From NCBI RefSeq assembly GCF_016734815.1, contig NZ_JAERQF010000002.1, forward strand, positions 62,001 through 126,000: a DNA stretch of 64,000 bases, in the 5' to 3' direction. Shown one piece after another: positions 2,032-58,742 of this stretch. The translations under genes were made by a program, and so were the position numbers. Source of the stretch: Hymenobacter rubidus. GTDB taxonomy: Bacteria; Bacteroidota; Bacteroidia; Cytophagales; Hymenobacteraceae. A model generated the notes under the pieces. The model ran no database searches, was not told the origin of the DNA, and saw only the letters and a program-made list of their open reading frames with translations. Each line of letters begins with the position of its first letter. Position 1 is the stretch's first letter.

Positions 2032-4167
2032 TCACGCCTCTACCCCTACCATCCGCTTAATCCCCAGCTTTTTCATCCGCGCTTCCAGCGTTTTGGGGTT
2101 GATATCCAGCAGCACGGCGGCCCCCTGCGAACCGCTGACGCGGCCGCCGGTGCGGGTGAGGGCGGCGAGTATATGGTCGCGCTCCTGCTCTTTCAGCGTC
2201 TTGATGGGCGTTTCGGGCTGGGGCGCGGGCGCAGCGGTGGCAGCCATCATGAGCGGCGCCCCGGCAAAGCCCGCAAACTCCAGAAACGGGCCTTGGCTCA
2301 CAATGATGGCCTGCTCCAGCACATGCTCCAGCTCGCGGATATTGCCAGGCCAGGAATACGATTGCAGCGCGGCCAAATCGGTGGGGCGCACTTGCCGGAC
2401 GGGCTTGCCCAGCCGCTTGCTCAGGCGCTGGATGAAGTGGCGCAGCAGGGGCTCAATGTCTTCGCGGCGCTCGCGCAGGGGCGCTAGCTCGATGGGAAAA
2501 ACGTTGAGGCGGTAGTATAAATCGGCCCGGAACCGGCCGGCAGCTACTTCGTCGGCCAGCACGCGGTTGGTGGCGGCAATGACCCGTGCGTCGGAATGCA
2601 GCACTTTGGTACCGCCCAGGCGCTCGAACTCGCGCTCCTGCAGCACGCGCAGCAACTTGGCCTGCAGGTCGAGGGGCAATTCGCCGATTTCATCCAGGAA
2701 AATACTGCCGCCGTTGGCTAGTTCGAACTTGCCGATGCGGCGCTCCACGGCCCCGGTAAAAGCCCCTTTTTCGTGGCCAAACAGCTCGCTTTCAATCAGC
2801 TGCGCGGGCAACGCGGCACAGTTGAGTTTGATGAGGGCGCGGGCGTGGCGCGGCGAAGCGTTGTGCAGCTCCCGCGCCACCAGTTCCTTGCCGGTGCCGG
2901 TTTCGCCCGAAATCAATACCGTGGTGTCCGTCGGAGCCACTAGGCCGATGCGGCGCTCGACCAACTGCAAGGCCGGGCTGCTGCCAATAAAAGTACCCGA
3001 ATCGGCTCCGAAGCGGGCCGAGGTGTTGATTTCATCAACCAGGTAGGTGCGTTCCTGCTCTACCTGAGCCTTCAATTCCTCAATCTGCTCGAAGGCGAAG
3101 AGGTTTTCGAGGGCCAGCGCAATCTGGGGCGTGAGGGCCAGTACGGTGGCCAGGTCTTCGGGGCGGAAGGCCGTGGGGTTGGGCGAGGCCAGCATGAGCA
3201 CGGCCGCGCCATCGGGCCGCTGCCAGATGGGCACAATGAGCATGGCGCGCGTGCCGTACTCTTCGTACACATACCGCAGCAGCGGGTAGCGCTGGGCCTG
3301 GGCCCGGAAGTCATCGGCCGCATAAAGGCCGGGCACCTTCAGCAAGTCGCTCAGCTGGTGATACATGGCCGAAGCGTCGAGCCGGTTCAGGCCGTACTGG
3401 CGGTTGGGGTCGAGGGCCAGCAGGGGCGCATCAGGCCCCTCGCCGGAGCGCGAAAACTCAGCGAACCCCTCGAACGGCTCCTGCCGGCCGGCCCGCTGCA
3501 CCCGCAAGCCAAAGTAGTCGAACCGCACCACGCGGCTCAGCGCCTCGGCTACGGCCCGGAACAGCGGCTCGCGCTGCTTGATGCTGAGCAGGGCATTGGT
3601 GATGTTGAGCTGCAGGGTCCGCTCCTGCTCGCGCCGAGCCACTTCCTCGAAGGCCAGCGTGTTGGCCACGGCAATGGCTATCAGGGAGCCAATTTTTTCC
3701 AGCAGCTTTTCGTCGGCGGCCGTGAAGGTGGGCGTGCGGCGCGAGGCCAGCGTCATGAAGCCGGTGAGGCGGCCGCCGATGTGCAGCGGCACCGCCGTGA
3801 GGTGCGTGACGCCCAGGTGGGTCATCTTCTTATACGCCGCATACTCCGGATAATCGGCCAGGTACTGTTGCGGCGTGAACTGCTGCACGCGCGGGTTGGC
3901 CACCAGTTTTTCGAGCGGTGAGCCGGCAATGGGCGAAAAGTAGTCGGCCCCGGGCGGCAGGGGCGGCGCTTCGTCGGTGCCGTAGTAGTCGCGCAGGAAC
4001 AGGCGCTTCTGCTTTACTTCCTCATCAAACACGTTGATGCCGATGAGGTCGAAGGGAAAAATGAGCCGCAACTTGGTCGTGACAACCTTGAACAACTGGT
4101 CTTTATCGCGAATCGTGGCGATGGCCTCGTTGAGGTGCAGCAGCAGAGTTTCGTCAGTGGTCGGCAT
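2032..4167 (-). CDS. Sigma-54-dependent transcriptional activator with two GAF domains
   Basis: A 711-residue enhancer-binding protein. Two GAF-like sensor domains occupy about residues 10-175 and 190-360. An AAA+ domain follows (about 390-630) with Walker A GETGTGKE near 420, the sigma-54 contact loop GAFTGA near 468 and Walker B SIFLDEIGELP near 488. A Fis-type helix-turn-helix is at the C-terminus (about 665-705). Intact GAFTGA and Walker motifs mean it should activate RpoN promoters by ATP hydrolysis; the ligand sensed by the GAF domains is unknown. There is no adjacent histidine kinase. It is transcribed divergently from the TolC efflux gene, a possible target, though no -24/-12 sequence was identified there. 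Confidence 0.93.
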   Translation of the reverse strand: MPTTDETLLLHLNEAIATIRDKDQLFKVVTTKLRLIFPFDLIGINVFDEEVKQKRLFLRDYYGTDEAPPLPPGADYFSPIAGSPLEKLVANPRVQQFTPQQYLADYPEYAAYKKMTHLGVTHLTAVPLHIGGRLTGFMTLASRRTPTFTAADEKLLEKIGSLIAIAVANTLAFEEVARREQERTLQLNITNALLSIKQREPLFRAVAEALSRVVRFDYFGLRVQRAGRQEPFEGFAEFSRSGEGPDAPLLALDPNRQYGLNRLDASAMYHQLSDLLKVPGLYAADDFRAQAQRYPLLRYVYEEYGTRAMLIVPIWQRPDGAAVLMLASPNPTAFRPEDLATVLALTPQIALALENLFAFEQIEELKAQVEQERTYLVDEINTSARFGADSGTFIGSSPALQLVERRIGLVAPTDTTVLISGETGTGKELVARELHNASPRHARALIKLNCAALPAQLIESELFGHEKGAFTGAVERRIGKFELANGGSIFLDEIGELPLDLQAKLLRVLQEREFERLGGTKVLHSDARVIAATNRVLADEVAAGRFRADLYYRLNVFPIELAPLRERREDIEPLLRHFIQRLSKRLGKPVRQVRPTDLAALQSYSWPGNIRELEHVLEQAIIVSQGPFLEFAGFAGAPLMMAATAAPAPQPETPIKTLKEQERDHILAALTRTGGRVSGSQGAAVLLDINPKTLEARMKKLGIKRMVGVEA

Positions 4168-4413
4168 GGGCAGTGCGGTAGCTTTCGCTTGCCGGGACTA
4201 ATGATTTGGCAAGTTTTTCACGGCCAGCGAAAGCGAACCGCACAACAAATTTTCCTTAAATAACAGGAGTAAAAGTAGGGTGATTCCTGCTATTTGAGGA
4301 ATATGAAGTTAGACGACTAACTAACAGCCATACTTTATCTAGGCTCGAAATAATTTTAATTAATTGTTATTCAGCTAGTAAATACAAAAAAAAGTAACAG
4401 CGGCTGGGGTGGC
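4168..4413. other. Divergent intergenic region between the sigma-54 activator and the TolC gene
   Basis: About 246 bases without a gene. The part from 4240 to 4400 is clearly AT-rich compared with flanking genes, as expected for a divergent promoter region. No perfect TAnnTTTG box or sigma-54 site could be assigned with confidence. Confidence 0.4.
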
Positions 4414-5823
4414 ATGCCTTTCGGTAAGGGCGGGGCACACCCTATGCCACTTGGCCTTATGTTTTCTCATCAACACCTCTTGGGCTTTGCCGGTTTGTCG
4501 CTGTTCGGCGGCTTGCTGCTGGCCCAGCCGGCTCTGGCGCAAAACCAGCCCGGCGTACCGGCGGCTTCCCAGGCCATTGGCCTGGCCAGCGACTCCCTGA
4601 CTCTTGGCGCGACGCTGCAAGCCGTGCTCGACGCCAACCCCAGCATTACCAACCTCACCGAGCTGGCCAATGCTTCGACCAGCCGCCTGAGCCAGACGCG
4701 GGCCGGCTTCCTGCCGCAGGTAACGGGCACGGCCACCTATACCCGCATCGACCCGGTGGTGAAGCTGCCGTTCAATGGCGAAACGCTCCAATTTGCGCCG
4801 AATAACAACTACGACTTTCACCTCACGGCCCAGTACCTGCTGTTCGACTTTGGCAAGAACGAGGCAACGGTGAAAGTAGCCGAGTCGCAGGTGCAAACGG
4901 CGCAGGACAACATCAACGTAGCCCGCCGCGACCTCGCCTTTAATGCCGCGCAGGTGTACTACAACATCCTGTTCATGCGCGAAAGCATCAAGGTGCAGGA
5001 CCAGCAGATTGCCTCGCTACAAGCCCACCGCGCCGAAATGAACAAGCGCGTGCAGGCCGGCGTGAGCACCCGCTTCGACGTGACCACCACCGATGTGCGC
5101 ATCACGCAGGCCCAGAACACCAAGCTCGACCTGCAGAACCAGCTGCGCAACCAGCAGGTGCAACTGGCCCGCTTGCTGCACAAGCCTTCCAACGCCGACA
5201 TTCCGGTGAAAGGCCGCCTCACCTACGAGCCGCAGCCTGTAGATATTGAAGCCGAAGTAGCCAAAGCCAGCAACAACCGCCCCGAGGTGAAGCTGGCCCG
5301 CGACGCCGAAAACACGGCTGCCCTGCAAGCCCGCCTCATCGAGAAGAGCAACATGCCCAGCCTGGGCGCGGGCGTGCAGGCCGGTGCTAAAAACGGCTAC
5401 ATTTTGCCCGACATCAACCGCATTCGCTTCAACACGGTGGGCGTCATCCAGTTGTCGGTGCCGATTTATGACGGCAACAAGAACAAGAAGCAGCGCGTGG
5501 AAGCGGCCGCCAATGCCCGCGCCGCCGTGGCCCGCACCGCCGACACGCAGGAGCAAATCCGGGCCGATGTGCGCCAGGCTGTCAACAACATGGACTTCAG
5601 CCAGGCCCGCCACGAAAACGCGCAGCAGCAGGTAGCCCAGGCCACCGAGGCCCTGAGCAAAGCCCGCGACCGGTACCGCTACGGCGTGGGCCAGAACCTC
5701 GACGTGCTGGACGCCGAAACCCAGCTCGCCCAGGCCCGCCTGGCCCTGGTGCAGGCCGAGTACAACTACACGCTGGGCCAGTACCAGCTGCGCCGCGCCA
5801 CCGGCGAGCAGATTTGGCAATAA
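4414..5823 (+). CDS. TolC-family outer membrane efflux protein
   Basis: A 469-residue outer membrane channel subunit; a shorter start at 4459 (MFSHQH...) would place the signal peptide closer to the N-terminus and is plausible. A hydrophobic signal segment ends in ALAQ. Two OEP repeats follow, with long Ala/Gln-rich helices such as KVAESQVQTAQDNINVARRD and the C-terminal QARLALVQAEYNYTLGQYQL, matching TolC-like coiled-coil hairpins. It is the outer membrane part of a tripartite pump whose adaptor (6476-7579) and inner membrane transporter (7722-9293) lie downstream in the same direction. Confidence 0.93.
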   Translation: MPFGKGGAHPMPLGLMFSHQHLLGFAGLSLFGGLLLAQPALAQNQPGVPAASQAIGLASDSLTLGATLQAVLDANPSITNLTELANASTSRLSQTRAGFLPQVTGTATYTRIDPVVKLPFNGETLQFAPNNNYDFHLTAQYLLFDFGKNEATVKVAESQVQTAQDNINVARRDLAFNAAQVYYNILFMRESIKVQDQQIASLQAHRAEMNKRVQAGVSTRFDVTTTDVRITQAQNTKLDLQNQLRNQQVQLARLLHKPSNADIPVKGRLTYEPQPVDIEAEVAKASNNRPEVKLARDAENTAALQARLIEKSNMPSLGAGVQAGAKNGYILPDINRIRFNTVGVIQLSVPIYDGNKNKKQRVEAAANARAAVARTADTQEQIRADVRQAVNNMDFSQARHENAQQQVAQATEALSKARDRYRYGVGQNLDVLDAETQLAQARLALVQAEYNYTLGQYQLRRATGEQIWQ

Positions 5824-5846
5824 GCATTAGAACGACGACAGTTGAA

Positions 5847-5936
5847 CGTCATGCTGAGCGCAGTCGAAGCATCTCTACCTCAATACTAATTAATTACTAC
5901 TACGGTAGAGATGCTTCGACTGCGCTCAGCATGACG
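5847..5936. repeat. Intergenic palindrome, family 2 (perfect 33-bp arms)
   Basis: Arms 5847-5879 and 5904-5936 are exact reverse complements over 33 bases around a 24-base loop. The core of the left arm is TGCTGAGCGCAGTCGAAGC. This element lies between the TolC and Usp genes and is one of about ten copies of this family in the window. Confidence 0.95.
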
Positions 5937-5969
5937 GGCCGAAACTTTCTATTCCCGCTTCCCCCTAAA

Positions 5970-6419
5970 ATGAACCTCTCCACCATCCTTTGTCCGCTCG
6001 ATTTCTCGGCCGCGTCGGCTGGGCTGGTGGCCTATGCGGCGGCCCTGGCCGTGGCCACCGGCGCCGAGCTGCGGCTGCTGCACGTGTGCGAGCCGCAGGA
6101 GGACCCCACCGGCCAGCAGCCCGACGCCAAGGTGTTCGGCTCCTGCAAGGGCCGGATGCAGGAACTGCAAGCGTCGGCCGAACAGGCGGGCGTGGCCCGT
6201 GTGCACACCGGCATGGTGCGCGGCGAAGCCGCCCCGGAAATTGTGGCCGAAGCCGACCGCCAACAGGCTGATTTAATTGTTATTGGCGCGCATGGCCAAA
6301 CGGGCCTCACGCGCTTTTTGATGGGAACCACCGCCGAAATCGTGCTGCGCACCGCCCGGTGCGCCACGCTGCTGGTGCGCGCCCCGCTCCAACCCGAAAC
6401 CGCAGCGGCTCAGGAATAG
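5970..6419 (+). CDS. Universal stress protein (UspA family)
   Basis: A 149-residue single-domain Usp. It starts MNLSTILCPLDFS, and the C-terminal nucleotide-binding signature GAHGQTGLTRFLMGTTA fits the G-x2-G-x9-G-(S/T) pattern of ATP-binding members. The open frame extends upstream, but that part is translated palindrome, so ATG 5970 was chosen. Usp proteins bind ATP and support stress survival; their direct partners vary. It lies between TolC and the EmrA-like adaptor, an unusual place for a Usp and a hint of co-expression with the pump. Confidence 0.92.
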   Translation: MNLSTILCPLDFSAASAGLVAYAAALAVATGAELRLLHVCEPQEDPTGQQPDAKVFGSCKGRMQELQASAEQAGVARVHTGMVRGEAAPEIVAEADRQQADLIVIGAHGQTGLTRFLMGTTAEIVLRTARCATLLVRAPLQPETAAAQE

Positions 6420-6475
6420 CCCGGCCGCCGCTCCGCTCCTTTTTTCGTAAAACACCGCCCCGAATACTTACTAAG

Positions 6476-7579
6476 ATGGCCCAGACCGAAACTTCCGTTC
6501 AAAACGCTCCTGCTCCTTACCCCAACGCGGCCGCCGAAAGCGAGCCGATGGAAGAGCCAAAAAAGCGCAACCCCCTTGTCTTTATCATCCTGGCGCTGGT
6601 GTTGCTGGCCGGGGGCTACTACGGCTTCACGCGCTACCAATTTGCCAAAGCCCACGAAAGCACCGACGACGCCCAGGTAGAAGGCGACGTGTACCCGGTG
6701 CTGCCCCGCGTGGGCGGCCCGGTGCTGGAAGTGAAAGTGGACGACAACCAGCCCGTGAAAAAGGGCCAGGTCCTCGTCACGATTGACCCGGCCGACTACC
6801 AACAGCGCGTGAACGCCGCCGAAGCCGCCCTCTACGCCGCCCAGGCGCAGGTAGCGGCCGCCCGCGCCGGCGTGGCTACCGCCAGCGCCAATGTGCGCAC
6901 CGCCCAAACCGGCATCGGCGTGAGCCAAGCCAACCAGGAGCGCCTGCAGAAAGACCTCAAGCGCAGCGAGCTGCTCCGCAAGCAGGACATCATCCCGCAG
7001 AGTGAGTACGACGCGGTGCAGGCCAATCTGAAAGCCACCGCCGCCCAGCGCGCCACCGCCACCGACCAGGTGAGCGTAGCCCGCCAGCAGGTGGCCGCCG
7101 CTCAGCAGCAGATTGCCGTGGCCCAGGCCGTGGTGAAACAGCGCCAGACCGACCTCGACAACGCCAAGCTGCAGCTGAGCTACACCACCATCACGGCGCC
7201 GCAGGATGGCATCATCAGCAAGAAAAACGTGCAGCCCGGCCAGGTAGTCGGGCCTGGCCAGCAGCTGTTTGGCATTGTGGGCAGCGCCCGCACCTGGATT
7301 ATCGCCAACTTCAAGGAAACCCAGCTGGAGGACATGAAAGTGGGCCAGCCGGTGAAAATCGAAGTGGACGCATACCCGAAAGAGGAGTTCCAGGGCCACA
7401 TCGAGTCGCTCTCGGCCGCTACCGGCGCCCGCTTCGCCCTGCTGCCCCCCGACAACGCCAGCGGTAACTTCGTGAAAGTGACCCAGCGGATTCCGGTGCG
7501 CATTGCCTTAGATAAAGTGGACCCTGAGCACCCACTACGCGCCGGTATGAGCGTGAATGCGGTGGTGCAGGTGAAGTAG
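6476..7579 (+). CDS. EmrA/HlyD-family membrane fusion protein
   Basis: A 367-residue periplasmic adaptor. After a short cytoplasmic N-terminus, one transmembrane helix spans about residues 33-51. A biotinyl-lipoyl-like half motif (PVLEVKVDDNQPVKKGQVL), a long helical hairpin rich in Ala/Gln, the second lipoyl half (TTITAPQDGIISKKNVQPGQVV) and a beta-barrel domain follow, as in EmrA. ATG 6476 was chosen because the helix and its positive-inside flank follow directly; upstream codons overlap the Usp gene. It should bridge the EmrB-like transporter to TolC for drug export. Confidence 0.93.
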   Translation: MAQTETSVQNAPAPYPNAAAESEPMEEPKKRNPLVFIILALVLLAGGYYGFTRYQFAKAHESTDDAQVEGDVYPVLPRVGGPVLEVKVDDNQPVKKGQVLVTIDPADYQQRVNAAEAALYAAQAQVAAARAGVATASANVRTAQTGIGVSQANQERLQKDLKRSELLRKQDIIPQSEYDAVQANLKATAAQRATATDQVSVARQQVAAAQQQIAVAQAVVKQRQTDLDNAKLQLSYTTITAPQDGIISKKNVQPGQVVGPGQQLFGIVGSARTWIIANFKETQLEDMKVGQPVKIEVDAYPKEEFQGHIESLSAATGARFALLPPDNASGNFVKVTQRIPVRIALDKVDPEHPLRAGMSVNAVVQVK

Positions 7580-7593
7580 CAGGTTGTTCTATT

Positions 7594-7697
7594 CTGTCAT
7601 CCTGAGCGCAGCGAAGGACCTTATCGCGCTTGAACAGTTTGCAGCAACTCGGGCATTGCAGACGTGATTAGGTCCTTCGCTGCGCTCAGGATGACAG
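7594..7697. repeat. Intergenic palindrome, family 1 (27-bp arms)
   Basis: Arms 7594-7620 and 7671-7697 are exact reverse complements, with left-arm core CCTGAGCGCAGCGAAGGACC and a 50-base loop. It sits between the adaptor and transporter genes of the pump. Confidence 0.95.
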
Positions 7698-7721
7698 GAA
7701 AATCTATAAAACAGATATAAA

Positions 7722-9293
7722 ATGGAAACCGGATTTACCAAGTGGATTATCGTTGTGACGGTGGTCCTCTGCTGCTTGCTGGAGCTCATTGATACCAGTA
7801 TTGTGAACGTGGCCCTGACCCAGATGATGGGCAACCTCTCGGCCACGCAGCAGGAAGTGACCTGGGTGATTGCCTCCTACGGCATCGCCAACGTGATTGT
7901 GATTCCGATGACCGGCTTCCTGGCCGAGCAGTTTGGGCGCAAGAACTACTACTTCGTGTCGGTGTGCATTTTCACGCTGGCCAGCATGGCTTGCGGCCAA
8001 AGCACCAACATCTGGGAGCTGGTGGCGTTTCGCTTCATCCAGGGCATCGGCGGCGGTGCTTTGATGGCCACTTCGCAGGCCATTCTGATTGACACGTTCC
8101 CGCCCAAGCAGTTGCCGCTCGGCCAGGCGCTGTTTGGCATGGGCGTGATTATCGGGCCCACCATCGGGCCGGCGCTCGGCGGCTACATCGTGGACAACTA
8201 CGACTGGCCCTGGATTTTCTACGTGAACGTGCCGGTGGGCATTCTGGCCGCTATTTTCACCCTGACATTCATCCGCGACCCCGAGCGCATTAAAAACGCC
8301 ATTCCCCGGCCGTTGCGCGAAATCGACTGGGCCGGCATTGGCCTCCTGATTCTCGGTGTGGGCTCGCTGCAGCTGGTGTTGGAGCAGGGCGAAACCGAAG
8401 ACTGGTTCGAAAGCGCCTACATCAACACGTTTGTGCTGCTGGCCGCCATTGGCCTCATCGGTTTTGTGTGGCGCGAACTCACGGCCAAGCAGCCCATCGT
8501 GGACCTGCGGGTGCTGGGCAAGAGCCGCAACCTGGCCGTGGGCGCGATATTGTCGTTCGTGCTGGGCTTTGGCATGTTTGCTTCGGTATTCATCTTCCCC
8601 ATTTTCACCCAGCGCATTCTGGGCTTCACGGCGGCTCAAACGGGTTCGCTGCTGTTGCCGGGAGCTTTGGCGGCCGGCTTCATGATGCCGGTTATCGGGC
8701 GCATGCTGCAGGCCGGCATCCCACAGAAATTCATGATTCCGACCGGCTTCGTTATTTTCTTTGGCTTCACGTATTGGATGGCCAAAATCATTTCGCCCAC
8801 CGCCGGCGAGGACGACTTCTTCTGGCCCCTGATGGTGCGCGGCCTGGGCATGGGACTGATTTTCCTGCCCATCACCACCATGAGCCTGGCCGGCCTGAAG
8901 GGCAAAGACGCGGGCCAGGCCGCCGGCCTCACCGGCATGATTCGCCAGCTCGGCGGCTCGTTTGGGGTGGCCATTGTGGGCACCTACCTGGAGCGCAGCA
9001 TCGCCCAGAACCGCATCAGTCCGCTGGCCCATATCTCGCTCTACGACACCAACACCGTGCAGCGCGTCCAGGCTTTCACCCAGAACTTCCTCTCGCACGG
9101 CTTCCCCTTGGAGCAGGCCCAAAAGCAAGCTTATATGGCCCTGGAAGGCATCCTGATGAAGCAGGTATCCATCATTACCTACGCCCAGGTATTCTCGATT
9201 ATCGGCTTTTTCTTCCTCATCTGCCTGCCGCTGGTGCTGCTCATCAAGCGCGCCAAAACGGCCGAGAAAATAGACCTGAACGCGGCCCACTAG
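7722..9293 (+). CDS. DHA2-family (EmrB-like) MFS multidrug transporter
   Basis: A 523-residue inner membrane protein with about fourteen hydrophobic segments, the expected number for DHA2 drug:proton antiporters. Visible family features are DTSIVNVALTQM in helix 1, the motif A-like loop GFLAEQFGRKNYY, and motif C-like glycine/proline-rich GMGVIIGPTIGPALGGYI in helix 5. With the upstream HlyD-type adaptor and TolC protein it forms a complete tripartite export system. No local TetR or MarR regulator is adjacent; the divergent sigma-54 activator is the nearest regulator. A long opposite-strand open frame over this gene is a composition artefact. Confidence 0.94.
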   Translation: METGFTKWIIVVTVVLCCLLELIDTSIVNVALTQMMGNLSATQQEVTWVIASYGIANVIVIPMTGFLAEQFGRKNYYFVSVCIFTLASMACGQSTNIWELVAFRFIQGIGGGALMATSQAILIDTFPPKQLPLGQALFGMGVIIGPTIGPALGGYIVDNYDWPWIFYVNVPVGILAAIFTLTFIRDPERIKNAIPRPLREIDWAGIGLLILGVGSLQLVLEQGETEDWFESAYINTFVLLAAIGLIGFVWRELTAKQPIVDLRVLGKSRNLAVGAILSFVLGFGMFASVFIFPIFTQRILGFTAAQTGSLLLPGALAAGFMMPVIGRMLQAGIPQKFMIPTGFVIFFGFTYWMAKIISPTAGEDDFFWPLMVRGLGMGLIFLPITTMSLAGLKGKDAGQAAGLTGMIRQLGGSFGVAIVGTYLERSIAQNRISPLAHISLYDTNTVQRVQAFTQNFLSHGFPLEQAQKQAYMALEGILMKQVSIITYAQVFSIIGFFFLICLPLVLLIKRAKTAEKIDLNAAH

Positions 9294-9358
9294 GGCCGTG
9301 AGGTGCGCAACGGTGAGGTCAGGCCTTAGCCGTCCGGGCTCTCCTTCTTCGCATATAG

Positions 9359-9430
9359 GTTCGTTTCGCAAACGCAAAAAAGGCCCCGCCAGTTACCTGG
9401 CGGGGCCTTTTTTGCGTTTGCGAAACGAAC
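9359..9430. terminator. Bidirectional terminator: 34-bp perfect hairpin with 4-base loop
   Basis: Arms 9359-9392 and 9397-9430 are exact reverse complements around the loop TTAC. The stem contains GGCCCCGCCAG flanked by A6 and T6 runs, so it reads as a rho-independent terminator in both directions between two convergent genes. The stem continues outside the T-run for another 16 bases, longer than a terminator needs. Confidence 0.93.
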
Positions 9431-9482
9431 GTTGGCCAGCTGAGCATGAACTTGACCTCCTCGCCGTTTCACACCTCACCGC

Positions 9483-10526
9483 TTACTGATATTGTATGTA
9501 GAGAGGCTTGGGCGTGAGTTGGGCCAATATTTCGGATGGCGTCATCATGTGGTGAGGGGCCGGCTTGGGGTCGTACTCGTAGAACAGCTTGAAGCCGGTG
9601 TACTGCACAGGCTCGGTCTGAATGTAGTCGTGGTACGAATCCTTTTTCAGGGTGGGCTCGCCGTGGCCGTCCATGTGCATCACCACCTGCACGCGGGGGT
9701 CGAGCTTGATGTTTTTGTAGTTCGTAATCATCTTCCTGGTGAAGCGGTGCACCGTCAACACCTTGGGCGGCAGGTGGTTTTCGCTCACAATGCGGGCCAG
9801 GAAGTTGATGGTGAAGTTCACGTCCTTGGCGTCGAGCGTGCCGATGCGCTGGTTGGGGCGCACGCCGGGCATGGTGGCCAGCGAAAACTCGGGGTCGATG
9901 CCGAGGTGGATGTCGGGCTGCTTGAGGTAGGGCTCCAGCTTGGGCAGTTCCACGGGCAGGGTGCTGTGGCCGGGCTGCACGTCCAGAAACAGGATGCAGT
10001 GGTGCTCGCGGGCCCAGGAAATCACCTCCTCAATGGTGGCTTTGGAGTTCATCAGGCGCCACTTGCCGTCTTTGCCGGGCGAGCCCTGGGCTGTGATGGT
10101 GACGTTGTGCAAGGCCGGCTGCACCGGAATGCTGGGGTCGGCGGCCTGCCACTCCTTCAGCACGCCGGCAAACTTGCGGAACATCTGCTCCTTGGGCTCG
10201 CGGCCCAGAATGCCCATGCCCTTCGAGCGAATGTTGCCATAAAACGCCACAATGCGGTGGCCCGGCAGGATGGCACCCGGCAGCTGCCCGTTTTTCTTGG
10301 CAATGGAGTCGGCCTTCAGCGAGTCGCGCCGCATGGCCAGCATCTTGATTTTGATGGTGTCAATTGGCGCGGGCTTGGCGGCCGTCTCGCCATCCGCAGC
10401 GGCAGTGCCTGAGGCGGCGGTTTCGCCCTCGGCGGGGCGGGTTTTGCAGGCGGGCAGGCTGGCGGCGGCCAGCAGGCCCAAGGCGGCAGCCACGATGGCT
10501 TGACGTGGCAGGAAGGAAATCAACAC
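9483..10526 (-). CDS. Conserved lipoprotein of unknown function
   Basis: A 347-residue protein with a lipoprotein signal (lipobox-like SLPAC, Cys at residue 27) and an Ala/Thr/Glu-rich linker to about residue 55. The rest is a single soluble domain with segments such as AFYGNIRSKGMGILG, ILFLDVQPGHSTLPVE and HLGIDPEFSL, whose alternating beta strands and acidic loop ends (LDV, GIDPEF, VVMHMDGHG) resemble a TIM-barrel-like fold. I do not recognise a named family or catalytic set. It is probably anchored in the periplasm or outer membrane. It precedes the BlaR-like locus in the same direction, separated by about 130 bases. Confidence 0.7.
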   Translation of the reverse strand: MLISFLPRQAIVAAALGLLAAASLPACKTRPAEGETAASGTAAADGETAAKPAPIDTIKIKMLAMRRDSLKADSIAKKNGQLPGAILPGHRIVAFYGNIRSKGMGILGREPKEQMFRKFAGVLKEWQAADPSIPVQPALHNVTITAQGSPGKDGKWRLMNSKATIEEVISWAREHHCILFLDVQPGHSTLPVELPKLEPYLKQPDIHLGIDPEFSLATMPGVRPNQRIGTLDAKDVNFTINFLARIVSENHLPPKVLTVHRFTRKMITNYKNIKLDPRVQVVMHMDGHGEPTLKKDSYHDYIQTEPVQYTGFKLFYEYDPKPAPHHMMTPSEILAQLTPKPLYIQYQ

Positions 10527-51300: not shown

Positions 51301-51424
51301 TTAGCGCAGAGTTTCGCGGATTAAGCCGAGGTGCGCAAAGTTTTCCGGTTGAACTGTTTTAGTTATTCCGAACTTTGTCAAATACTTCGCGGAACTCAGC
51401 TCCCTCCGCGAAACTCTGCGCTTA
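51301..51424. repeat. Inverted repeat ending on the mnmG start codon
   Basis: Arms 51301-51320 and 51405-51424 match at 19 of 20 positions (GCGCAGAGTTTCGCGGA type). Inner segments around 51333-51346 and 51369-51380 also pair (GCAAAGTT/AACTTTG). The right arm ends at the A of the ATG. Confidence 0.88.
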
Positions 51425-53292
51425 TGTTTCAGCAAGAAGAATACGACGTCATTGTAGTAGGCGCGGGCCACGCCGGCTGCGAAGCCGCGGCTGCCGCCGC
51501 CAACCTCGGCTCGAAGGTGCTGCTGGTGACGATGAATATGAATACCATCGCCCAGATGTCGTGCAACCCCGCCATGGGCGGCGTGGCCAAGGGCCAGATT
51601 GTGCGCGAAATCGACGCGCTGGGCGGCCAGTCGGGCATCATCACCGACCAGACCATGATTCAGTTTCGGATGCTGAACCGCTCCAAGGGCCCCGCCATGT
51701 GGAGCCCCCGCGCCCAAAGCGACCGCATGCGCTTCGCCGAAGCCTGGCGCCTGACCCTGGAAGGCATCGCCAACGTGGACTTCTGGCAGGAAGCCGTGAC
51801 CGGCATCGTGGTGGAAAACGACGCCGTGGTAGGCGTGAAAACGCAGCTCGGCATTGAGTTCCGCGGCAAGTCGGTGGTGCTCACGAACGGCACCTTCCTG
51901 AACGGCCTCATCCACATCGGCGAGAAGAATTTTGGCGGTGGCCGGGCGGCCGAGAAAGGCAGCCGCGGTATCACTGAGCAGCTGGTGGAGCTGGGTTTTG
52001 AAGCCGGGCGCATGAAAACCGGCACCCCGCCCCGCGTGGACGGCCGCAGCCTGGACTACTCCAAAATGGAAGCCCAGGGCGGCGACGAGGTGCCCAGCAA
52101 ATTCTCCTACCTCGATACGCCGCGCCTCACGCAGCAGCGCCCCTGCTACATCACCTACACCAACGAGCGGGTGCACGACATCCTGCGCGAGGGTTTCGAG
52201 AAGTCGCCTATGTTCCAGGGCCGCATCAAGGGCCTGGGGCCGCGCTACTGCCCCAGCGTGGAGGACAAAATCAACCGTTTCGCCGACAAGGACCGCCACC
52301 AGATTTTTGTGGAGCCCGAGGGCTGGAGCACCGTGGAATGCTACATCAACGGCTTCAGCAGCTCGCTGCCGGAGGACGTGCAGTACCGCGCCCTGCGCGA
52401 AATAGCGGGCTTTGAGAACGCCAAGATGTTCCGCCCCGGCTACGCCATCGAGTACGACTTTTTCCCGCCTACCCAGCTGGCGCTCACGCTCGAAACCAAG
52501 CTGATTGCGGGTCTGTATTTCGCGGGCCAGATTAACGGCACCACGGGCTACGAGGAGGCCGCCTGCCAGGGCCTGATGGCTGGCATCAACGCCCACAACA
52601 AGGTGCACGGCAAACAGCCCTTCATTCTCAAAAGGAGCGAAGCCTACATCGGTGTGCTCATTGATGACCTGGTGAACAAAGGCACCGACGAGCCCTACCG
52701 CATGTTCACGAGCCGCGCCGAGCACCGCATTCTGCTGCGCCAGGATAATGCCGACCTGCGCCTCACGCCGCTGGGCCACGAGTTGGGCTTGGCGTCGGAT
52801 GAGCGGCTGGAGCGCGTGCGGATGAAGGAAGCCCAGACCGCCGAAATCGGCACGCTGTTCCAGAAATTCGCCATCGAGCCGGCCGAAATCAACCCGCTAC
52901 TGGTGGAGCTGGGCTCGGCCGAAATCCACGAAAAAACCCGCGCCGTGAACCTGCTGCGCCGCCCCAACGTGGAGCTGACCGACCTGCGCCGCGCCCTGCC
53001 CGCGCTCGATGAAGCGTTGGCGGCTTACGATGCAGAAGCATTGGAGCAGGCCATTATCAACATCAAGTACGAAACCTACCTGCTGAAGGAGCAGCAGCAG
53101 GCCGAGCGCATGCAGGAGCTGGAAAACTTCGTAATTCAGGGCCGGCTCGATTACCGCGCCATGCCCGCCCTCTCGCACGAGGCCCGCGAAAAGCTGCTCA
53201 AGATTCAACCAGAAACCATTGGGCAGGCCTCGCGCATCAGCGGCATCTCGCCCGCCGATGTGTCGGTACTGATGGTGTACTTGGGCCGTTAG
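51424..53292 (+). CDS. mnmG: tRNA uridine-5-carboxymethylaminomethyl modification enzyme MnmG (GidA)
   Basis: A 622-residue FAD enzyme which with MnmE modifies the wobble uridine of certain tRNAs. The FAD-binding motif GAGHAGCEAA, the segments SCNPAMGGVAKG, GRMKTGTPPRVDGRS, CPSVEDKI and INGTTGYEEAACQG, and the helical C-terminal domain (SRISGISPADVSVLMVYL) are all present, with family length. The start was set at ATG 51424; the upstream frame is inverted-repeat sequence. mnmG lies next to the origin in many bacteria, and here a DnaA-box cluster is 3.4 kb downstream. Confidence 0.97.
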   Translation: MFQQEEYDVIVVGAGHAGCEAAAAAANLGSKVLLVTMNMNTIAQMSCNPAMGGVAKGQIVREIDALGGQSGIITDQTMIQFRMLNRSKGPAMWSPRAQSDRMRFAEAWRLTLEGIANVDFWQEAVTGIVVENDAVVGVKTQLGIEFRGKSVVLTNGTFLNGLIHIGEKNFGGGRAAEKGSRGITEQLVELGFEAGRMKTGTPPRVDGRSLDYSKMEAQGGDEVPSKFSYLDTPRLTQQRPCYITYTNERVHDILREGFEKSPMFQGRIKGLGPRYCPSVEDKINRFADKDRHQIFVEPEGWSTVECYINGFSSSLPEDVQYRALREIAGFENAKMFRPGYAIEYDFFPPTQLALTLETKLIAGLYFAGQINGTTGYEEAACQGLMAGINAHNKVHGKQPFILKRSEAYIGVLIDDLVNKGTDEPYRMFTSRAEHRILLRQDNADLRLTPLGHELGLASDERLERVRMKEAQTAEIGTLFQKFAIEPAEINPLLVELGSAEIHEKTRAVNLLRRPNVELTDLRRALPALDEALAAYDAEALEQAIINIKYETYLLKEQQQAERMQELENFVIQGRLDYRAMPALSHEAREKLLKIQPETIGQASRISGISPADVSVLMVYLGR

Positions 53293-54779: not shown

Positions 54780-56397
54780 ATTGCTGGCTTTGCTGGCGCT
54801 GGTTGCCTTGCTTGAAAGCTGCGCCGCCGTGGCCCCGCCCCTGGGCGGCCCGCGCGACCGCACCCCCCCGCGCCGCATCAGCAGCTCGCCCGACAGCGCG
54901 GCCCGCAACGTGAAGCAGCAGTTTGTGCGGCTGATTTTTTCGGAGCCCGTCATCACCAAGGACCTGAGCAAAAACCTGCTCATCACCCCGCAGCTGCCCG
55001 AAGACAATCCCTACAAGCTGCGCGAAGACCGCAACTCCGTCACGCTACTTTTCGACAAGCCCCTCGACCCGAATACCACCTACAGCTTCAATTTCCGCGA
55101 CGGGGTGGTGGACATTACCGAAGCGCTGCCGGCCAAAAACGCCTACCTCACCTTCAGTACCGGCGCGGTGCTCGATTCTGGCAAAGTGAGCGGCACCCTG
55201 ACCGACGTTCTTTCCCAAAAACCCGTGGCCGACGCCAGCATCGGCCTCTACCGCGTGGGCGACACCCTGGGGGTGCGCAAGGGCCGGCCGTACTACACCG
55301 TTCTCACGGATAAGAGCGGCAAATTCAGCCTGAATTTTCTGAAAGATGGTTCTTATAACCTCTATGCCCTGGTCGATAAAAACAACAACGGCCACTACGA
55401 CGAAGGTGAAAAAATAGCTTACCTGCCTGCCCCCGTTAGCATTGTGGGCAGCACCGCTGCGCCCTTCGCGCTCGTGCTCACGCAGCCGGACAAACGGCCG
55501 CCCCTCCTCACCTCCCGAAACCCCACGCCCACGCAGTTGAGCATCAACTTTAACGAAGGCCTGCGAACGGCCGTGCTCTCGCCGCTCGGTGCCTCGGCCA
55601 GTGCCGCCGCGGTGGCCGAGGCCGTGCAACTCGCCGAACGAGGCCGCGCCGTGGTGGTCTTCAAAACCCCGGAAGTGGGCGACGGTCGCTACCTGCTCAC
55701 CACAGCCGACAGCACGGGTAACGTCGCTCACGATACCCTCAACATTAAATTTCCGGTGCCGGCCGCCGCCGCCAAAAAAACGCTTCAGCCCACGCTCTAC
55801 ACCGTGGAAGGCGCCCCCCGTTCCGTGTACCACGAGGGTCAGGTCAAATTTCAGTTTCAGGTACCGGTGCGGGTAGTGCAAAACCGGCCTTTCGGCACCC
55901 TGGTCGAGGATTCGGTGAAGCGCCGCCCCCTGCGTCTGCCCACCGACGGTACCCTCAGCGCCGACCGCACCCACCTCATGGTGCGCTTCAATACCAAAGC
56001 CAAAACCCGGCTCGAAATCTGGCTCGACAGCACGGCCATCACCGCCATAACTGGCCAGAACCTGCGGCTAAAACCTTTGCGCCTCGGCCTAAGCGAGCAA
56101 GACGTTTCGACCAGTCTTGCGGGCACCATCACCACCAAGGCAAAGAATTTCGAGCTGCAACTGCTCGATGACAAGCTGCAGGTAGTGGCCAGCTTGGCCT
56201 CCCCCAAAGGAAGCTATCTGTTTTCCGACATAGCGCCCGGCACCTACCACCTGCGCGCGCTCATTGACACCGACGGCGATGGCCGCTGGCGCGGCGGCGA
56301 CCCCAACCTGCTCTTGGCGCCCGAGCCCGTGTACCTCGACCCCAGGCCCCAGCAAGTACGGGCCGGTTTCGACATTGTGGAGAACCTCGCGTTTTAG
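54763..56397 (+). CDS. Ig-like (Big_5) domain lipoprotein
   Basis: A 544-residue lipoprotein (LLESC, Cys20). Mature start APPLGGPRDRTPPRRISSSPD is typical of Bacteroidota lipoproteins that begin with a Big_5 Ig-like domain (about 45-140, FVRLIFSEPVITKDLSK, VTLLFDKPLDPNTTYSFNF). A carboxypeptidase-regulatory-like segment (about 145-235) and further beta domains follow; a final CarboxypepD-type unit (YLFSDIAPGTYHLRALIDTDGDG) ends the protein. Function is unknown; related proteins often sit near cell wall and division genes. Confidence 0.85.
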   Translation: MSVRAELLALLALVALLESCAAVAPPLGGPRDRTPPRRISSSPDSAARNVKQQFVRLIFSEPVITKDLSKNLLITPQLPEDNPYKLREDRNSVTLLFDKPLDPNTTYSFNFRDGVVDITEALPAKNAYLTFSTGAVLDSGKVSGTLTDVLSQKPVADASIGLYRVGDTLGVRKGRPYYTVLTDKSGKFSLNFLKDGSYNLYALVDKNNNGHYDEGEKIAYLPAPVSIVGSTAAPFALVLTQPDKRPPLLTSRNPTPTQLSINFNEGLRTAVLSPLGASASAAAVAEAVQLAERGRAVVVFKTPEVGDGRYLLTTADSTGNVAHDTLNIKFPVPAAAAKKTLQPTLYTVEGAPRSVYHEGQVKFQFQVPVRVVQNRPFGTLVEDSVKRRPLRLPTDGTLSADRTHLMVRFNTKAKTRLEIWLDSTAITAITGQNLRLKPLRLGLSEQDVSTSLAGTITTKAKNFELQLLDDKLQVVASLASPKGSYLFSDIAPGTYHLRALIDTDGDGRWRGGDPNLLLAPEPVYLDPRPQQVRAGFDIVENLAF

Positions 56398-57394
56398 TCG
56401 CGGCCCCCTTCAGAACTTTTCCTGGCCCTGGCAGGGCGGACCTTCCTCATTCGAAGGCCGTCCGGCCGGGGCTTCGTCGTCGGGCTCAGTTTGCGCAGAG
56501 TGAATTATCCGCGTTTTTGACCTGGTGTTAACGAAGCTGTTTAGAAAAACGGCTCGGGCCGGTCCCGACGCCCTCGGCGTCCGACCGGTTTTAGGTCGAC
56601 GGTCGTTTGCGCATCGTTCTGACAACAGCCGGTCGGACGCCGAGGCGTCGGAACGGTCAACGAGGCACTTCCTAATCAGCCTTAACGTGAAGAACACACC
56701 CCGCAACGCGGTTTCGTGGATAAATAAGCTTTGAATCCAGTTACTGGGGGTGGTTTTTCATACTAATCCACCGGTTTTCCACGGGTTTTTCCACACGGGT
56801 TTGGCTTTGTGGGAAATTTCGGGGATAACCTAGGGGAAACAGGGGCACAACACGGGGATAAATGGGGCACAAGTTTTTTTGGCCATTCAGCCGCCTGCAC
56901 AGGGACCAAAGCACGGGGATAAACGGGGATAACTTCCACCCGGCAGCGGGCCTTCCCACACCGCTATTTAAAGGTGGATAATAAAAATGTGGAAAGCCGG
57001 TGGAGATGTTGAAAAACAATTTAACCGGCTTTATTACAACGCTTTACTTTCCACAATGCTGGTGTATAGCACGTGGAAAAGCCCGGCCTTACCCCCACGT
57101 TTTCCACGCTGGGGATAACCTCGCTGGCTTATCCACTTATCAACTGACCTAATGAGTGGAAACAAGAAGAGTTTTTTAGAAAAAAATTTAATAAAAAGTT
57201 AAGACTGGGGAAAACCAGAAAAGCTGCGCTTCCTGCCCCACGGTTCGGGCCGCGCTTTGCAAACAGAGTCCGGCCCCCAGAAAAGGGCGCCTTCCAAGGT
57301 TTGGTGAAAAAGCTGTTGCAAAAAGCGGAGTTATCCCTGCCGCTTTGTGGAAAAGTGCGTAAAAAGGTCGTTCCAACCCTTTTGCCCACCCGCC
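56398..57394. other. Gene-free region with DnaA-box cluster (candidate replication origin)
   Basis: Nearly 1 kb without a convincing gene, the longest such gap in the window. Nine-base sites similar to the DnaA box TTATCCACA occur on both strands at about 56716, 56775, 56787, 56808, 56821, 56854, 56915, 56926, 56953, 56974, 56988, 57048, 57073, 57100, 57111, 57129, 57156, 57331 and 57346 (for example TTTTCCACA, TTATCCACT, GGGGATAAC, TGTGGAAAA). A strongly AT-rich run, about 57166-57203, follows the main cluster and could be a duplex-unwinding element. A palindromic pair lies at 56559-56656. Confidence 0.65.
56559..56656. repeat. Pair of mutually inverted GC-rich hairpins
   Basis: Segments 56559-56588 and 56629-56656 are each palindromic (CCGGTCGGACGCC type) and are also reverse complements of each other with few differences. 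They lie between the Ig-like lipoprotein gene and the DnaA-box cluster. Confidence 0.8.
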
Positions 57395-57889
57395 ATGCCG
57401 TTCGATTACACCCTCGATTTCCACACCACCGACTTCCGCCAGCACCCCGAGCTCTACCGCGTGGGCCGGGGCGAGCAGGGCGTGCTGCTGGTGCAGCCCT
57501 ACAAGGGCGAAATTTTGCCGCACTGGCGCTTCAAAGACGCGGCGGCAGCCCGGGAGTCGTCCGAGACGATTTACGCGCTGTTTGAGGCTTATTTGAAAGC
57601 CCACGACTTTGTAGGGGCGGACATGGCCCGGAAGTTCATCCAGATGGGCTTCACCCGGGCCCGGCGCTATGCCAACCACAAAGGCGGCAAAAAATACGAC
57701 GGCCCCGTGCCCGACGATAAAAAAGGCCAGAGCGGCGCCCACGGCCGTGCCGAATTGCCCCGCACCACCCACCCCGATGCCGACAAGGTAGAGGCCGCTG
57801 CCATTTTCAAGCGCAAATGGGACGAGGCCAAAGCTAACCCCGAATACATCCGTCAGAAAGACGCATTTATGGAGAAATACGGAAAGTGA
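57395..57889 (+). CDS. DUF4385 family protein
   Basis: A 164-residue soluble protein beginning MPFDYTLDFHTTDFRQHPEL. Conserved blocks GRGEQGVLLVQPYKGEILP, DMARKFIQMGFTRARRYANH and KGGKKYDG match DUF4385, found in many bacteria and of unknown function; the basic ARRYANHKGGKKY stretch hints at nucleic-acid binding, which is inference only. Family length is normal. It lies just right of the DnaA-box cluster. Confidence 0.88.
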   Translation: MPFDYTLDFHTTDFRQHPELYRVGRGEQGVLLVQPYKGEILPHWRFKDAAAARESSETIYALFEAYLKAHDFVGADMARKFIQMGFTRARRYANHKGGKKYDGPVPDDKKGQSGAHGRAELPRTTHPDADKVEAAAIFKRKWDEAKANPEYIRQKDAFMEKYGK

Positions 57890-57903: not shown

Positions 57904-58005
57904 TGTCATCCTGAGCGCAGCGAAGGACCTTATCACGACTGCCCGGCTTGCAGCAAACCAATTGGCACAGTCGTGATAAGGTCCTTCGCTGCGCTCAGGA
58001 TGACA
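57904..58005. repeat. Intergenic palindrome, family 1 (37-bp arms)
   Basis: Arms 57904-57940 and 57969-58005 are exact complements (core CCTGAGCGCAGCGAAGGACC), loop 28 bases. Confidence 0.95.
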
Positions 58006-58038
58006 ACCGACACCCGCTGAACACCCAACCTCCCTGCC

Positions 58039-58046
58039 TACCTTTG
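58039..58046 (+). promoter_or_regulatory. -7 promoter box (TACCTTTG)
   Basis: An exact TAnnTTTG match that ends 24 bases before the start codon of the acidic protein. Confidence 0.65.
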
Positions 58047-58070
58047 CTGACTACCCTTCACCCCAACCGC

Positions 58071-58559
58071 ATGAGCACCACGCAACCCTCCAGCATCGAG
58101 GAAAACGAAATTATACTGGGCACCGGCATGGGCCCGCTGCGCTTCGGCGCCACCATGGACGAAGTGCGCACCCTCGTGGGCGAGCCCGAGGAAATTGAAG
58201 AGTCCGACGACGACGACGACTTTGAGCACCAAGCCTGGAACTACCACGAGGAAGACTACCTGCTTTCGCTCTACTTCGACCGCGAAGACGACTTCCGCCT
58301 GAGCTGCATCGAAACCGATAACCCCAACATGCGCCTCTTCGGCGAAGCCATCTACGGCCTGAGCGTGGACCAGGTGAAGGCCATCATGGCGCGTCACAAC
58401 CAGCCCACGCCCGAGCTCGAAACCATGGAAGAGGGCGCGGTACGCCTCTCCTACGAGAAGTCGATGATAGACCTATACTTTGAAGAAGGCGAGCTGCAGT
58501 TCGTCAATTTCGGCGTCTTCATCAACGACGACATGGAAGTGCAGTGGCCCAAACAGTAG
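58071..58559 (+). CDS. Acidic cytoplasmic protein of unknown function
   Basis: A 162-residue protein with high Asp/Glu content (for example ESDDDDDFEHQAWNYHEEDY) and no signal. The beginning ILGTGMGPLRFGATMDEVRTLVGEPEE has the pattern of immunity-like/DUF proteins that begin GxGxxxxxxGxSxxEVxxxLGxP. It may belong to the broad SMI1/KNR4-like or BamE-like fold group, but that is uncertain. ATG 58071 fits a TACCTTTG box upstream. A pair of perfect DnaA boxes starts right after its stop. Confidence 0.75.
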   Translation: MSTTQPSSIEENEIILGTGMGPLRFGATMDEVRTLVGEPEEIEESDDDDDFEHQAWNYHEEDYLLSLYFDREDDFRLSCIETDNPNMRLFGEAIYGLSVDQVKAIMARHNQPTPELETMEEGAVRLSYEKSMIDLYFEEGELQFVNFGVFINDDMEVQWPKQ

Positions 58560-58564
58560 CTCAC

Positions 58565-58636
58565 TTATCCACATTTACCGCTGTTTTTACTGTGGATAAG
58601 TGGATAAGTAACTAAAAACAGTGGGGTTATCCCCCA
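58565..58636. promoter_or_regulatory. Second DnaA-box cluster
   Basis: Two perfect DnaA boxes in opposite orientation, TTATCCACA at 58565-58573 and TGTGGATAA at 58591-58599, are followed by GTGGATAAG at 58600-58608 and GTTATCCCCC near 58626-58635. Three strong boxes within 44 bases are unlikely by chance in such GC-rich DNA. Confidence 0.7.
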
Positions 58637-58684
58637 GTTTTGGCTTTCCGCTAGCAACGGTTGGCTTTGCTAATTTGCCGAGCA

Positions 58685-58721
58685 CGAAAAAGGCTGCCCC
58701 GTTGAAGGGCAGCCTTTTTCG
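58685..58721. terminator. Bidirectional terminator
   Basis: Arms 58685-58699 and 58707-58721 (GGCTGCCC/GGGCAGCC with A and T runs), 15-bp perfect stem, between convergent genes. Confidence 0.92.
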
Positions 58722-58742
58722 TATTCAAGCGGGTACGTTTTG

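Follow-up and report, generated by a model that had tools for sequence, protein, structure and literature searches.

We analysed a window of 64,000 nucleotides lying within a 311-kb contig of a Hymenobacter genome that is available as 5.49 Mb in 87 contigs. The left landmark in this window is mnmG (gidA; 51421..53292, + strand; PF01134, PF13932), and at 57395..57889 on the same strand lies a DUF4385 gene (PF14328, E 9e-67) whose protein shares 97% identity with a protein of Hymenobacter sp. CA1UV-4 and 96% with a protein of Hymenobacter sp. M29. Further right, a small gene with no Pfam match (57996-58559) separates the DUF4385 gene from a group of three candidate DnaA boxes. An earlier note on this DNA had described the surroundings of the cluster as free of genes and, indeed, Pfam searches on the ORFs found none between 56398 and 57394: the five ORFs of at least 80 aa that lie wholly or partly within this region (an extended reading of the DUF4385 gene aside) have no Pfam match, and an Rfam search of 56300-57500 returned no match.

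DnaA-box-like nonamers around an AT-rich run

The gene-free region contains a cluster of DnaA-box-like nonamers on both strands (56715..57354), with mnmG 3.4 kb to its left, where the earlier note had placed it. Within the 661 bases from 56700 to 57360, we counted 21 nonamers with at most two mismatches to TTATCCACA: none is exact, six have one mismatch, and 15 have two. This is the kind of cluster beyond chance that an oriC should hold; 200 dinucleotide shuffles of the same sequence gave a mean of 1.7 and a maximum of 6 at this threshold, and at one mismatch or less the shuffles gave a mean of 0.1 and a maximum of 1. The earlier note had counted 18-19 boxes starting at 56716; the end of its last box at 57354 holds, whereas the count is 21 and the first box starts at 56715. 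Its claim that such motifs are rare elsewhere is also correct, as no other 700 bases of the window hold more than 4 boxes. The motif TTWTCCMC occurs 606 times in this genome of 5.49 Mb, and 14 of these occurrences fall within the cluster, where about 0.07 would be expected by length.

Toward the right of the cluster is an AT-rich run of 36 bases (57167..57202), a candidate unwinding element (DUE) which had been given before as 57166-57203. By nearest-neighbour energy, and with overlaps left out, it is the third least stable 36-mer in the window, such that an easily unwound run lies beside the boxes as it does in an oriC. Just to its left are two forward boxes, TTATCCACT and TTATCAACT, that have one base in common (57129..57145, + strand), and between these last left boxes and the run lies a conserved CCTAAYGA motif (57146..57155, + strand). 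To the right of the run is a reverse box, TTTTCCCCA (57206..57214, - strand), at which many relatives read TGTGGAWAA on the + strand. Judged by eye, the sequence beside the DUE agrees with a DnaA-trio at the first CTA that follows the left boxes and no further.

Just left of the proposed origin we also observed a 17-base perfect inverted repeat (56572-56588 and 56629-56645), and the stretch around it, 56556-56660, folds strongly (z -7.6). This is a dispersed palindromic repeat; there are 48 among the matches listed in the same genome, some of which represent both strands of one copy.

Conservation of the cluster in relatives

From a search with DUF4385 we took the best 80 of 236 loci, including 68 (L011-L078) from Hymenobacter or near kin; the remaining 12 come from Acinetobacter (7), Alkanindiges (2), Neolewinella (2), and Pontibacter (1). 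Among the 68 Hymenobacter-group loci in this best 80, 66 have their densest 700 bases immediately upstream of DUF4385; this stretch begins 600 to 1125 bases before the gene and contains 18 to 32 boxes. The exceptions are L063, with its cluster 6.6 kb upstream of DUF4385, and L031, with no cluster within the 14.8 kb of locus sequence. None of the 12 loci from outside the Hymenobacter group has a cluster just upstream of DUF4385; in the Pontibacter locus, a density of 13 boxes per 700 bases is reached 2.7 kb upstream.

The arrangement within the cluster is also conserved. With boxes allowed up to two mismatches, a forward box, a CCTAR-type motif, an AT-rich run, and a reverse box follow one another in that order in 65/68 loci (the failures are L027, L031, and L063), and a looser test raises this to 66/68. 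We aligned the window with 13 of the 68 loci; in these 14 sequences, the forward boxes at 57129-57145 are near-invariant, and there is little change in most left boxes, the TTATCCACTTATCAAC pair, CCTAATGA, the AT-rich run, and the TGGGGAAAA box. The earlier note had proposed conservation in relatives as a check on its reading, and both the alignment and the 66 loci show that the boxes are kept.

Two kinds of local change stand out in individual loci. In L063 (Hymenobacter metallicola), some 6 kb with ORFs of 705, 405, and 301 aa (about 4050-9950) lie between the cluster and DUF4385, and the three-box element is still beside DUF4385 despite the displacement of the cluster. In L023 and L026, the spacer to the right of the AT-rich run, upstream of DUF4385, contains repeated AAGGGTTTG-type units; in L023 this spacer includes a run of N in the record.

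The cluster can also be found from the position of mnmG. In a set of 20 family genomes, six of the window's genus and 14 of five other genera, 19 carry a cluster at a distance of 4.4-6.6 kb beyond the start of mnmG, and its density ranges from 10 to 28 boxes per 700 bases; the sole miss is G016, which has no cluster near mnmG. Exact matches to the pattern TTATCAACNNNCCTAAYGR were found in 38 of 200 family genomes, one per genome and all in the window's genus, and the 21 for which the position of mnmG is known all lie 5.1-5.9 kb past its start. When one mismatch is allowed, 100 of the 200 genomes have matches, some of them by chance, because a reversed-pattern control matched too; this short pattern is too strict to serve as a presence test across the 200 genomes.

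Gene orientation and GC skew

Given that rRNA and ribosomal-protein genes should point away from an origin, we placed the origin at the cluster and the terminus opposite in 14 single-contig genomes, two of which have no 16S match. On this assumption, 24 of the 27 16S genes listed and all 14 rplB genes are on the leading strand, with the other three 16S genes on the lagging strand. In 5000 sets of random origins, the mean was 20.4 leading genes of 41 and the maximum 35, such that none reached at least 38 (the real value being 38/41), a statistic drawn from related genomes, which are not independent. The score stays at 38/41 if the assumed origin is moved in one direction by as much as 10% of the circle.

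The earlier note had regarded the genes to the left, which run toward the cluster, as evidence against an origin. Its statement that all genes between 43.8 and 56.4 kb point rightward is borne out for 49.8-56.4 kb, the range that was checked, where five Pfam-matched genes are all on the + strand. We do not see this as an objection, because mnmG points toward the cluster in all 19 family genomes that have the cluster beside it, and because there is no overall strand bias of ORFs in the two genomes sampled (48% and 51% of ORF length on the leading strand).

Since our own genome is fragmented into 87 contigs, we sampled GC skew in two complete relatives, NZ_CP053904 (4.41 Mb, of which 60 stretches of 20 kb cover 1.2 Mb) and NZ_CP060784 (4.63 Mb, of which 40 such stretches cover 0.8 Mb), using a two-breakpoint fit with a free origin, which fixes the terminus and not the origin. 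In both genomes, the maximum of the cumulative skew, corresponding to the terminus, lies opposite the cluster: in NZ_CP053904 it is fitted at 1.68 Mb, with the cluster at 3.82 Mb and its antipode at 1.61 Mb, and in NZ_CP060784 at 3.86 Mb, with the cluster at 1.53 Mb and its antipode at 3.85 Mb. The minimum is broad in both, and the best fits lie off the cluster. For NZ_CP053904, the best origin in the orientation-corrected free fit is 4.14 Mb, and the cluster, 0.32 Mb away, is worse by 4.35 units of n ln(RSS ratio) (3.4 uncorrected); forcing the terminus opposite moves the best origin to 3.92 Mb, and the cluster is then worse by 1.4 (2.6 uncorrected). For NZ_CP060784, the corresponding free fit gives a poorly constrained origin at 2.42 Mb, with the cluster worse by 4.0 units (5.6 uncorrected), and forcing the terminus opposite gives 1.58 Mb, 50 kb from the cluster, which is worse by 4.0 (4.9 uncorrected). 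In the 206 kb that we read of our own contig, the cumulative skew keeps falling across the cluster, with no switch there, and reaches its lowest value 55 kb to the right. A skew minimum elsewhere was what the earlier note would have counted against an origin at this site, and the result is divided: the two maxima opposite the cluster speak for the origin, and the broad minima, the fits off the cluster, and the course of the skew in our own contig speak against it. The skew thus supports the origin-terminus axis, not the exact place of the origin.

These results bear on the possibility, also raised in the earlier note, that the cluster is a reservoir or inactivation site for DnaA like datA, acting by titration or ATP hydrolysis, with the origin elsewhere. 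The datA locus stands apart from the origin. In E. coli, it has five boxes and an IHF site (PMC4585315). A site of this type would be compatible with many boxes and no exact consensus among them, and with a best free fit in NZ_CP053904 that is 0.32 Mb away. In contrast, the conserved AT-rich run between convergent boxes, the location of the cluster opposite the skew maximum, and the leading-strand placement of rRNA genes and rplB all fit an origin instead. Moreover, we found no second cluster of like density in the 100 sampled 20-kb stretches, which cover 1.2 Mb of the 4.41 Mb of NZ_CP053904 and 0.8 Mb of the 4.63 Mb of NZ_CP060784 and where the maximum was 9 boxes per 700 bases against 22 in the cluster of NZ_CP053904 and 21 in that of NZ_CP060784. 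We consider a datA-like site very improbable.

The origin might also be expected beside dnaA, leaving the cluster described here as a secondary one, given that oriC usually adjoins dnaA (PMC10225481). The densest sampled stretch outside the clusters, with the 9 boxes per 700 bases just mentioned, is in fact at the dnaA of NZ_CP060784. In the three dnaA loci of 3.5 kb each, however, the maxima per 700 bases are 4 in our own genome, 5 in NZ_CP053904, and 9 in NZ_CP060784, and across the 14 single-contig genomes dnaA is 14-47% of the circle away from the cluster. The largest distance is that of NZ_CP053904 (locus L091), whose dnaA at 1.474 Mb is 47% of the circle from the cluster and close to the skew maximum. 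We give an origin beside dnaA almost no credence. The other 13 single-contig genomes have dnaA at 14-28% of the circle, and the position near the inferred terminus in NZ_CP053904 is perhaps due to a rearrangement.

Taken together, the cluster, the unwinding run, and the axis lead us to propose with high confidence that this Hymenobacter has its chromosomal replication origin, oriC, at 56715-57354. The reading of the earlier note as a chromosomal origin is supported by conservation, architecture, the orientation of rRNA genes and rplB, and the place of the skew maximum; we do not favour its datA-like alternative. By analogy with known bacterial origins, DnaA would occupy the many imperfect boxes. 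The run at 57167-57202, with two forward boxes on its left (57129-57145) and a reverse box on its right (57206), would open for helicase loading, and two forks would then depart in opposite directions.

A three-box element beside the cluster

About 1.2 kb to the right of the origin cluster is a second group of boxes (58565..58607) that the earlier note had overlooked and that includes two exact TTATCCACA boxes. This element, TTATCCACA-N17-TGTGGATAAGTGGATAA, has its boxes on the +, -, and - strands with starts at 0, 26, and 34. It lies between two convergent genes, with the end of the small gene (57996-58559) on one side and the end of a PHO4-family transporter gene on the other; being downstream of both, it has no obvious promoter position. 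The convergent pair is found here in 67 of 69 sequences (the 68 loci and the window), as L032 and L077 end too soon rightward, and in all 67 that are long enough (66/66 loci and the window) the facing boxes are 26 bases apart. Outside the main cluster, the only other common spacing is 34, which is that of the third box of this element. Of the 66 loci, 65 have the exact nonamer as box I. Box II reads TGTGGATAA in 41 loci and TGTTGATAA in 19, and the third box, oriented like box II, reads AGTGGATAA in 41, AGTTGATAA in 16, and another variant in 9. As a background, 41 of 1795 tiles of 1.1 kb elsewhere in the same loci hold at least two boxes within one mismatch.

With up to one mismatch, the element is present in six of six single-contig loci of the window's genus and in both loci of genus g5. 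It was not found in 11 of the 12 other family loci at up to two mismatches; in the twelfth, L231, there is a weak match inside the main cluster. Nor did we find it, at up to one mismatch, in the 100 sampled stretches of NZ_CP053904 and NZ_CP060784. Among the 63 TTWTCCACA sites of our own genome, those of the element form the only convergent pair with 26-base spacing. A further convergent pair of exact TTATCCACA boxes, with starts 16 bases apart, is found on a separate contig (C65:2166-2190).

Located between convergent genes, the element could be a transcription terminator hairpin and no DnaA site at all: its arms can pair, and a 106-base stretch folds with z scores of -2.9 (+ strand) and -4.0 (- strand). 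A more stable hairpin (z -5.5) followed by T-rich sequence, however, lies further right at about 58684-58722, and the third box is mostly outside the 9-base arms. Only 40 of 66 loci have arms that are complementary along their whole length, whereas box I is exact in 65 of 66, indicating that it is the sequence that is kept and not the stem. Given the incomplete complementarity and the more stable hairpin to the right, we view a terminator as unlikely. Instead, the element is probably a second candidate DnaA site of the same origin region, one that may load, loop, or adjust DnaA.

A bolder and rather doubtful idea is that the Hymenobacter origin is a module of two parts, a melting cluster and a rigid three-box DnaA switch linked to the origin that works in the manner of DARS or datA. 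The switch would lie across DUF4385 and one small gene from the melting cluster and, being beside oriC, would be copied at the moment of initiation. If true, the origin of a lineage of Bacteroidota would contain an inbuilt site for nucleotide exchange, hydrolysis, or loading of DnaA. With its base-exact spacing and its place beside the proposed origin, the element lets origin-built control of DnaA outside the gamma-proteobacteria be tested directly. The cluster, for its part, offers a candidate origin that can be tested in a family whose dnaA is no guide to it, and makes the downstream side of mnmG an anchor for orienting draft genomes and for trying replicating plasmids.

Comparison with known systems

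As a kind of object, the proposed oriC would be an ordinary one that is well supported by comparison; what is unusual about it is its distance from dnaA and its rigid three-box companion. It resembles bacterial origins in having intergenic boxes, an adjoining AT-rich run, and gidA/mnmG in the vicinity. A predicted enterobacterial origin, for example, lies between gidA and mioC, like that of E. coli (PMC10225481). It differs from the usual oriC in that it is far from dnaA, has 21 boxes of which none is exact, has mnmG 3.4 kb off with DUF4385 adjoining, and has no DnaA-trio beyond the first CTA (again by eye).

Cytophaga hutchinsonii belongs to the order Cytophagales. Its oriC plasmids (Xu et al. 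2012) can be set beside our origin as coming from the same order; an oriC fragment is used on plasmids in that species, as cited and listed in the plasmid table of PMC5891637. Within literature searched by titles and abstract openings, we found no description of a Hymenobacter oriC, and a predicted entry in DoriC may exist.

The bipartite origins of B. subtilis and Helicobacter pylori have two groups of boxes with genes between them, as in Hymenobacter; in those two species it is dnaA that lies between the groups, whereas in Hymenobacter it is DUF4385 and the small Pfam-less gene. The three-box element itself can be compared with the DARS sites of E. coli. These are far from oriC, in contrast to the 1.2 kb that separates the element from the origin cluster. 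In E. coli, the release of ADP is promoted by a head-to-head contact between the DnaA molecules on DARS boxes I and II (PMC8682772). Our search for DARS-like sites in the Bacteroid* literature gave, among the matches listed, only E. coli DARS and unrelated papers. For the comparison of boxes, we used what we take to be the places of DARS1 and DARS2 in E. coli K-12 and located boxes by the consensus TTWTNCACA with up to one mismatch, the assignment of boxes being our own. The DARS cores share with the three-box element the +, -, - order, with box I facing boxes II and III, and both have the first box and one reverse box 26 bases apart. The layouts nevertheless differ: the DARS1 and DARS2 boxes start at 0, 14, and 26 (steps of 14 and 12), and those of the Hymenobacter element at 0, 26, and 34 (steps of 26 and 8).
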